The notes under the pieces were generated by a model. That model saw nothing but the letters and a program-made list of their open reading frames with translations. It was not told the DNA's origin and searched no databases. DNA of 64,000 nucleotides, taken from assembly GCF_000185905.1 (NCBI RefSeq), contig NC_014923.1:558001-622000 (forward strand), in the 5' to 3' direction. The position numbers and the translations under genes are program-made. Positions 972 to 18,569 of the stretch are shown one piece after another; the stretch's first letter is position 1, and every line of letters begins with the position of its first letter. Source of the stretch: Mesorhizobium ciceri biovar biserrulae WSM1271. GTDB taxonomy: Bacteria > Pseudomonadota > Alphaproteobacteria > Rhizobiales > Rhizobiaceae.

Positions 972-1521
972 CGCGACTCGGCGGGCCCGCGCTGGCTTAC
1001 CTTCGACCGTTAGGGAAACCTGACCAGTGGGACGAAGAGCTGATGGCGGCAATGCAGACAATTCTTGCGCGGAAGGGGGTCAAGGTCGAAGTCCGAGACA
1101 TTCATTCCCATTGGTGCAACAGACCGGCACGGTTGCGAATTTGGGGTTGGACACGCCGTGCCGGCCAGTGCTGGACACCCCAGCCCGATTACGCTACCGG
1201 CACAACAGGAATCCAGCAATTAAGCCTGATGGTCTAGATCGCGAGTGCAGAGCCTGTTCTCGCGCTTCAGGGGGCCTTTTTACCACGGGCATTACTTCTC
1301 CTCCGGGCAGTCCAGCAGCTTCGCATGGCGATGCATTTCTTCGCACCCGTCCGACAAGGCCGGGCTTGAACCATTCCGCCTTGTCTTTCTTCAGGCCTTC
1401 GGCACTGGTCCGCTAACCTTGCCCTGCACGCGGTCCCACAGGCAGTTGCGTCTGCCGAACTTGAAATTGAGGTTGACGGAGCCGACTTGCGGAATCGGCT
1501 GTCGTTTCCTGGAGAAAGCAA
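972..1521. other. gene-poor stretch after the LacI gene
   Basis: I see no convincing gene here. The open frames on both strands have no good ribosome site and no recognisable protein pattern. A short minus-strand frame around 1370-1420 reads plausibly (LKKDKAEWFKPGL) but is flanked by stops and frame changes, so it is at most a decayed remnant. Confidence 0.4.
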
Positions 1522-1551
1522 AAAGCCCGCCACCTTTCGGCAGCGGGCTTT
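1522..1551 (-). terminator. rho-independent terminator of the small RiPP-like gene
   Basis: A perfect 9-bp stem (AAAGCCCGC at 1522-1530 with GCGGGCTTT at 1543-1551) closes a 12-nt loop. Read on the minus strand it ends in a T-rich run. It lies 21 bp after the stop codon of the 30-residue gene at 1573-1665, so it fits that transcript. Confidence 0.75.
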
Positions 1552-1572
1552 CCAAAACTGTAACTCTCTTGG

Positions 1573-1665
1573 TTAATCGATAATCCCGGATGAGCTGGGC
1601 GAAGCCGTCACTGACGACAGTCGCTCACGCTTCGTGAAAACGGGCTTCTGATAGATTTTCTTCAT
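1573..1665 (-). CDS. 30-residue RiPP (lasso-type leader) precursor-like peptide
   Basis: This very short gene encodes a 30-residue peptide beginning MKKIYQKPVFTKRERL. The start is well supported: AAGGGGA lies 7 bases before the ATG on the minus strand, and a strong terminator follows the TAA. The N-terminal half fits the leader pattern Tyr-x-x-Pro seen in lasso-peptide precursors and in the short proteins often labelled putative RiPP precursor in rhizobia: Tyr5, Pro8, basic KRER at 12-15 and Thr20. The remaining residues, SPSSSGIID after Ala21, would be a nine-residue core ending in Asp9, with no tail. No cyclase, protease or RRE protein is encoded nearby, so it is an orphan. The gene is likely real. 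The RiPP role is inferred from the leader pattern only. Confidence 0.6.
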   Translation of the reverse strand: MKKIYQKPVFTKRERLSSVTASPSSSGIID

Positions 1666-1981
1666 CGACATTCCCCTTTGCCAATAATGTGTCACTCTTT
1701 GCCTTCCGCCGGGCAGCGTGTCAATCGCGCAACAAAATGCCGCCACCTTTCGGCAGCAGGCCGGTCACGGCGGTATGTCGATGGCCATCACCGCCTCCAC
1801 GGAAGGAACGCTGATGGCATTCCAACTTGCCCATCGTTTTCGGATGATTAACAAAAAGGGCAATTATGTAACTGACAACCCCGCTCTTATTGGCGCTGGC
1901 TGTCAGGAAAGATCTGCCTGCGCCTTGCCCTTGCCGATAACCTTTGCTTGCCTACTGTCCCGACCATGAGAGGAGGCAAAC
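1666..1981. other. intergenic region with a second terminator-like hairpin
   Basis: No gene is supported here. A 17-base sequence at 1741-1757 is identical to 1528-1544 inside the terminator of the small gene. It forms a weaker hairpin (about 1739-1758) with a T-rich tract on the minus strand. A TTGACA lies on the minus strand near 1716-1721, upstream of the small gene, but has no well-placed -10 partner. Confidence 0.45.
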
Positions 1982-16011: not shown

Positions 16012-17724
<1,713 letters not shown>

Positions 17725-18410: not shown

Positions 18411-18569
18411 ACGAACGCGATGATCTAGCTTGTTGGGGAAAGGCAGGGTTCGACATGTACAAGGCCGTTGGATCCGCGTGGATCCCGGGTCAGCCGCGCG
18501 TCAACGCTTATTTCGACCGCTGGCGCGGCCTGCGCGTGTGCGGGCACAAGCAAATGGGAAATCCATGAA

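Follow-up and report, generated by a model that had tools for sequence, protein, structure and literature searches.

The stretch of DNA analysed here, referred to as the window, comprises 64,000 nucleotides of Mesorhizobium ciceri biovar biserrulae WSM1271 (NC_014923.1, positions 558,001 to 622,000). On its minus strand, an open reading frame running from 1665 to 1573 translates to MKKIYQKPVFTKRERLSSVTASPSSSGIID followed by a stop codon, and both a leader profile and homologues identify it as the gene for a precursor peptide of 30 residues (1573..1665). Residues 1-21 (MKKIYQKPVFTKRERLSSVTA; 1603..1665) constitute the predicted leader, with a lasso-type YxxPx[F/L] motif and a Thr at position −2, as judged from codon-position entropies and comparison with the leader of the organism's own lasso precursor. 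Residues 22-30 (SPSSSGIID; 1576..1602) constitute the predicted core, in which Ser5 is the predicted phospho-acceptor. A ribosome-binding site, AAGGGGA, lies at 1672..1678 and is similar in related units; the original prediction had placed it there with a spacing of 7 bases to the ATG, and the sequence holds while the spacing is in fact 6 bases. An earlier in-frame ATG (MSMKK...) and a 57-residue GTG extension of the frame also exist. Because the earlier ATG is missing in two of three related copies, those on the organism's second replicon and in genome G030 (AAGATCGATG), and is kept only in the copy of M. ciceri WSM4083 (genome G057), translation probably begins at the ATG at 1665. The strong terminator that had been claimed for the gene is borne out by folding: a hairpin at 1517..1552 (pattern match 1525-1548) folds at −24.9 kcal/mol (z = −4.67) and is followed by a T-run. 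The same hairpin serves as the downstream boundary of a larger unit, and a second copy of the sequence with a weak fold (1738..1761; z = −0.82) marks the upstream boundary.

The window gene is one of seven family members in its own genome. A tblastn search gave ten candidates, seven with the leader pattern; three others (C1:2173052, C1:3091303 and C1:2889785; E 1-4) were rejected, as the pattern is missing from them. Residues M1, K2, Y5, K7, P8, K12, L16, S17, V19, T20, A21 and S26 are invariant among the own-genome members, and the leader consensus for the genus is MKKxYxKPxLxKRxxLSxVTA. At E <= 0.01, at least one member was found in 83 of 119 Mesorhizobium genomes, WSM1271 included, with 1-20 copies in each and 687 matches in total; some members are arranged in tandem with a spacing of ~180 bp. 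The overlapping loci that were fetched contained 116 matches, which were reduced to 80 unique peptides of 28-39 residues. An SD-like stretch stands at the proper distance before 78 of the 80, versus 22 of 80 for an interval further upstream. A terminator-like hairpin within ~70-80 nt was seen for 14 of the 80 only, and so a terminator is not general to the family.

With merely 30 codons, the frame might be taken for a chance ORF, a notion that we find barely credible. A leader profile made solely from peptides of other genomes, run against the six frames of the window, gave E = 5.8e-14 for the ORF and 0.19 for the second-best segment, and the family recurs across the genus as described above. 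Moreover, the entropies at codon positions 1, 2 and 3 of 71 leaders are 0.48, 0.45 and 1.27 bits, respectively, and this concentration of variability at third positions argues for constraint at the protein level. The drift of codons free of such constraint, against which the original prediction had cautioned, was therefore not seen, and the 30-codon gene is, to judge from these comparisons, a genuine one, as had been proposed. Inspection by eye of the ORFs of locus L020, which cover ~10 kb on one side of the gene and 8 kb on the other, revealed no modifying enzyme, in line with the earlier description of the gene as an orphan. That term suits the locus but not the genome, where six paralogues are present. 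Elsewhere in the window, Rfam matches were recorded for 5_ureB_sRNA (16162-16453, minus strand) and MH_s36 (18417-18507, plus strand).

The leader supports the proposal that the gene encodes a RiPP-type precursor with a lasso-type leader. The Tyr, the Pro and the Thr at −2 occupy the same columns in the window leader and in the leader of the organism's own true lasso precursor, with 5 of 20 residues identical, and, by sequence criteria, a lasso-type leader with YxxPx[L/F] and a conserved −2 residue is found in the family. The window peptide had no match in Pfam or NCBIfam at E <= 10, and hence none to NF033521 (lasso_leader_L3) or NF033528 (lasso_cyano), so the search of RiPP and lasso models suggested by the original prediction failed for the peptide itself but gave hits among its relatives. 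Three of 31 genus members, scanned singly, passed NF033521, the leader-domain model named "lasso RiPP family leader peptide-containing protein" (22.1, 19.7 and 23.3 bits; cut-off 19), as did the own lasso precursor (24.6 bits). None of the 31 passed the lasso precursor models, the best NF033528 score being 22.5 versus a cut-off of 33 bits; the own lasso precursor passed NF033528 with 38.9 bits. In three matched plasmid records, the place is annotated "hypothetical protein" or left unannotated. Because of these annotations, and because NF033521 catches only 3 of 31 members, most of the family has apparently been overlooked.

The window gene resides in a hairpin-bounded unit of ~240 bp (1514-1757) that shares 89.6% identity over 249 bp with a unit elsewhere in M. 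ciceri WSM4083 and 81% identity over 257 bp with the copy on its own second replicon. The leader part is ~81% identical to that of the G030 unit, the core of which differs (SPISSTVSG). The same hairpin flanks the window unit on both sides (1525-1548, 0 mismatches; 1738-1761, 3 mismatches), whereas none was seen in shuffled sequences. It likewise stands on both sides of the second-replicon and WSM4083 copies and only downstream in G030, and further copies of it are located in the own genome away from any family member found. From this arrangement, the window copy looks like a small, putatively mobile unit. One might then ask if the copy still works. Beside it lies a decayed fragment (1299-1441), 74.7% identical to sequence close to an ORF for a LigD-like ligase on the second replicon, and the corresponding locus of M. 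ciceri WSM4083 is occupied by another family member, so that the gene, lying in a stretch with decayed sequence, could be silent, a relic of an otherwise working family. We think this quite unlikely. The frame, the SD and the terminator are intact, and the leader DNA differs from the WSM4083 copy by two synonymous and no nonsynonymous changes.

Where the modifying enzymes are to be found is a separate question. The genome contains two PF13471 loci, so lasso-type enzymes, which the original prediction had supposed might lie elsewhere in the genome, do occur there. One of the loci is a four-gene block at C1:234802-237545, ~322 kb from the window gene. It consists of N, an NTP_transf_5 protein (PF14907); K, an HprK-like kinase; B2, a lasso-type peptidase (PF13471; NF033537, 71.5 bits, cut-off 33); and B1, a PqqD-like RRE (PF05402). 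No macrolactam cyclase is present in this block. The order dhaK-N-K-B2-B1 was found in all 11 Mesorhizobium loci examined, the own locus included, among the 80 genomes with the kinase. In one Mesorhizobium locus (L080), a formyltransferase-like gene lies inside the block between N and K; at L012 and L071, inspection by eye shows that the block neighbours dhaK together with a Dha-PTS region containing an HPr-like ORF. The other PF13471 locus (L011; C1:262516-268518) is a complete lasso cluster with precursor, B1, B2, cyclase (794.7 bits) and ABC exporter, the precursor having the core GGGGSTAID... (GGGGSTAIDASFPAHTPIGDLTFS).

The designation of K as HprK-like comes from weak profile matches, the fold class and a P-loop/Asp motif. 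A profile of five kinases run against PDB sequences matched HPr kinases best, though weakly (E 8e-4) and over the P-loop region; the score against HprK_rel_A (TIGR04352) was 33.6 bits, below the cut-off of 200, and Pfam gave no match. For the homologue from M. carmichaelinearum, AlphaFold gives a confident model with a mean pLDDT of 94.2, and the best 50 PDB fold matches listed for it are all PEP carboxykinases, with no HPr kinase among them. HprK shares the PEP carboxykinase fold. Across 20 sequences, no variation occurs at H135, G157, K158, T159, D175 and D176, residues that resemble in kind those reported for BsfK (PMC10368454).

The occurrence of precursors follows that of the kinase. All 80 of the 119 genus genomes that have the kinase hold at least three precursors, while 36 of the 39 that lack it hold none and the other three have a single match each: an intact one in G115, a diverged one in G113 and one lacking the YxxP part in G096 (Fisher p 2.4e-27, phylogeny ignored). 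We located dhaK in six of nine kinase-negative genomes searched, and in none of the six does the block stand beside it. In five, sequence that the own genome has 3.0 kb farther along begins within 77-174 bases after dhaK; in G016, the match with the own genome resumes ~1.2 kb beyond that point. B1, B2, K and N are therefore absent together, and they are the only genes of the block between the bounds of the empty sites.

An alternative to maturation by this block is that the window gene specifies a true lasso precursor and that the cyclase from the own lasso cluster (C1:262.5-268.5k) acts in trans to close the core on Asp9. That the key leader residues align with those of the own lasso precursor, that the own cyclase scores 794.7 bits and that the window core ends in Asp9 would all accord with this. 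So would the second PF13471 (B2-type) match in 76 of the 80 kinase-positive genus genomes, on account of which most of these genomes probably also hold a lasso cluster. The distribution of the cyclase speaks against it. A search with the lasso cyclase model NF033535 covered 17 genomes, 14 of them kinase-positive, and in 11 of these 14 no match exceeded the cut-off. Among the 11 are four Mesorhizobium genomes with 6-8 precursors each (G040, G068, G069 and G117), which were picked for their single PF13471 match and of which G068 is 79% complete; the other seven are non-genus genomes of the order sample described below. Conversely, 15 genus genomes are PF13471-positive but kinase-negative, and 12 of them have no precursor. 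Within the genus, it is these 12 and the four picked genomes that separate the family from the lasso cluster. Maturation by the own lasso cluster is thus not supported by co-occurrence, which follows the kinase block.

The tails bear on the same issue. Those of the genus are 7-18 residues long and variable apart from Ser5: 76 of the 80 have a Ser at position 5, against a mean of 12.4 and a maximum of 23 after shuffling, and all 80 have one at positions 4-6 (shuffled mean 33.4). Outside the genus, a Ser or Thr is at position 5 in 40 of 58 tails (shuffled mean 10.5, maximum 20) and at positions 4-6 in 54 of 58, not strictly at 5 and often as Ser-Gly. A conserved core residue of this kind suits a kinase substrate. 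An Asp or Glu at positions 7-9, on the other hand, was seen in only four of the 80 genus tails, none with at least five residues after it, and in 14 of the 58 others, of which four, all from one genome (L188), have at least five residues after it. In the window core itself, Asp9 is the last residue and leaves no tail to thread. The lasso ring closed on Asp9 that the original prediction had contemplated is therefore not supported, because the cyclase is not part of the system and so few genus tails offer an acid at the required positions; a true lasso precursor strikes us as highly improbable.

The leader is far better conserved than the tail, and related units with nearly identical leaders can differ in their tails. 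One reading of this is that the peptides never become matured products: they would act intact as short proteins, or would sit on the RRE (B1) as decoys or regulators. We hold this to be very unlikely, given that Ser5 is conserved within the tail, that the B2 peptidase adjoins the kinase in 26 of 26 loci, and that some linked arrays have tails conserved from copy to copy (GANFSGKK in L186, KPVSG in L205). The conservation of Ser5 and of these array tails indicates that the tail matters.

Outside the genus, precursors physically linked to the enzymes occur. In a sample of 297 genomes of the order, the kinase was present in 13, six of them Mesorhizobium. At E <= 0.001, precursors were detected in 11 of the 13 and in none of the 284 kinase-negative genomes (Fisher p 2.4e-18, phylogeny again ignored), counts that are lower bounds with at most 27 candidates scored per genome; the remaining two, G194 and G393, have three and six weak-scoring precursors, respectively, beside the block. 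A scan of named genomes yielded 80 loci from Mesorhizobium and relatives, other Alphaproteobacteria and one planctomycete-labelled MAG. Twenty-four of these (L209-L232) were weak partial matches, which were set aside and reused as controls for the leader profile. In the 25 non-Mesorhizobium context loci plus L166, B2 and N stand beside the kinase in 26 of 26 and B1 in 24 of 26. When the order sample and the named scan were merged, the non-genus set amounted to 29 genomes (three being in both), and in 24 of the 29, precursor-like peptides lie close to the block or form arrays at other places in the genome, 18 of these genomes being recognised by the leader profile and six (G194, L197, L199, L200, L202 and L203) by pattern and eye only. 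No precursor was found in the fetched stretch of L192, L195, L196, L206 or L207, the last two being contigs shorter than 7 kb. With the leader-only profile, 58 matches were obtained in 19 of 32 kinase-genome stretches (412 kb), compared with zero across the 25 control loci (301 kb), which are mostly Actinobacteria and not matched by phylum. The pattern scan of the non-genus loci ran without a control, and chance matches that lacked the leader pattern (MTWVGQYSDAVAALIMSLSP... among them) were discarded by eye. Together with the co-occurrence, this linkage supports the suggestion, made originally as one of two options, that enzymes act in trans on the window peptide.

Several of the non-genus loci have features of their own. 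L186 carries ten precursor copies around G[A/T]NFSGKK. A Rhizobiaceae MAG has an array of ten precursors (L188:7029-8967), in which several tails have a Thr replacing Ser5 (GPGGTEPDIRPQ, INVGTEVR). Some 1.4 kb from its B1-B2-K-N block, G276 encodes a Peptidase_S74 domain that carries a precursor-like leader (LKPYHKPTLTKGSVLSDVTA) as a fusion (L123:6857-7252). Close to the Roseovarius block (L165) there is an asparagine-synthase-like gene, outside the NF033535 scoring, whose identity to the lasso cyclase is 26%. The fetched stretch includes both an AMP-ligase and a GNAT at 14 of the 25 non-genus loci (L165, L174, L175, L181, L186-L188, L192, L195, L196, L199, L202, L203 and L205), eight of which also have a carrier-protein match, and a formyltransferase-like gene is found at seven (L189, L194, L195, L200, L204, L205 and L206). 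These neighbours suggest a later acylation or formylation of the products at these loci.

The nearest known system is that of the linear polyphosphorylated peptides (LPP) of Bacillota, in which, according to PMC13381572 (Nat Commun 2026), an RRE, a kinase and an NTP transferase act without a cyclase to give linear phosphorylated peptides. The common features are a discrete RRE, an HprK-like kinase, an NTP transferase, the lack of a macrolactam cyclase, a YxxP leader, a conserved core Ser and a predicted linear product that is phosphorylated and glycosylated. LPP has precursors of 35-200 aa that bear the leader motif YxxPxVLxHQxIxFETxxS and phospho-Ser3, along with a signal-peptidase-I-like LppS and an MsbA-like exporter, and the authors of that paper call LPP restricted to Bacillota. 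Here, in contrast, a lasso-type B2 takes the place of LppS within the bounds of the empty sites, the block has no exporter, the genus precursors are of 28-39 aa, the conserved residue is Ser5, and the system is found mainly in Alphaproteobacteria, with Mesorhizobium precursors that are multicopy, scattered and remote from the enzymes. The LPP leader motif was not seen, by eye, in the family consensus, and in the search for an MsbA-like exporter, the own lasso ABC exporter matched (E <= 1e-8) at only one of 25 non-genus loci. Phosphorylated lasso peptides (paeninodin, pseudomycoidin, Bsf), as presented in PMC9266682 and PMC10368454, share with the present system B1, B2, K and in some cases N, as well as a YxxPxL leader with a conserved −2 residue. 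They differ in that the block described here has no cyclase and its peptides no general ring acceptor and no threading tail; the conserved core Ser is at position 5 here and at the C-terminus or position 3 there. In the literature covered, which leaves aside most subscription journals and all bioRxiv preprints, we found no paper on such a system in Mesorhizobium.

Two reactions on record are instructive. BsfK phosphorylates Ser3 of the core with the help of B1, which also assists B2 (PMC10368454), and in pseudomycoidin, PsmK phosphorylates and the nucleotidyltransferase homologue PsmN leads to hexoses on the phosphate (PMC9266682). We think it quite probable, reasoning from sequence, that the window gene encodes a RiPP precursor matured in trans by the B1-B2-K-N block, with no cyclase, to a short linear phosphopeptide or phosphoglycopeptide. 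The leader would be bound by the RRE B1, encoded ~322 kb away, which would hand the precursor to K for phosphorylation of the conserved Ser5 and also to the cysteine peptidase B2 for a predicted cut after Thr-Ala (VTA|SPSSSGIID). N may then add a sugar or a nucleotide to the phosphate. As no cyclase takes part, the product would be short and linear; a function as a signal or surface peptide is our guess. In Mesorhizobium, the precursors are scattered and the enzymes stay beside dhaK, from where they would act in trans; the window copy forms a small unit between hairpins, and among its relatives the leader is retained and the core can vary.

The gene belongs to a large family of precursors, those of a system that resembles LPP, has no cyclase and is present mainly in Alphaproteobacteria, and there is a fair chance that this system is a class of its own. 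A broader proposal, to which we give somewhat less than even odds, is that of a distinct alphaproteobacterial RiPP class in which one fixed B1-B2-K-N block matures in trans a changing set of up to ~20 tiny precursors per genome, and in which these multiply through tandem arrays and as mobile mini-cassettes bounded by hairpins, with the leader retained and the core exchanged. The outcome would be strain-specific linear phosphopeptides or phosphoglycopeptides, further acylated or formylated in part of the genera. If this is true, then the AMP-ligase/GNAT/ACP set or the formyltransferase would carry out the extra modification, and the set of products could serve as signals or surface decorations. 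The link to an enzyme set makes the substrate prediction testable, and the known range of linear phosphorylated RiPPs would widen past Bacillota. Precursors that lie remote from their enzymes are likely missed by genome mining limited to the neighbourhoods of enzyme genes, and with 687 matches in the 119-genome sample alone, the family is large and has been little noticed.
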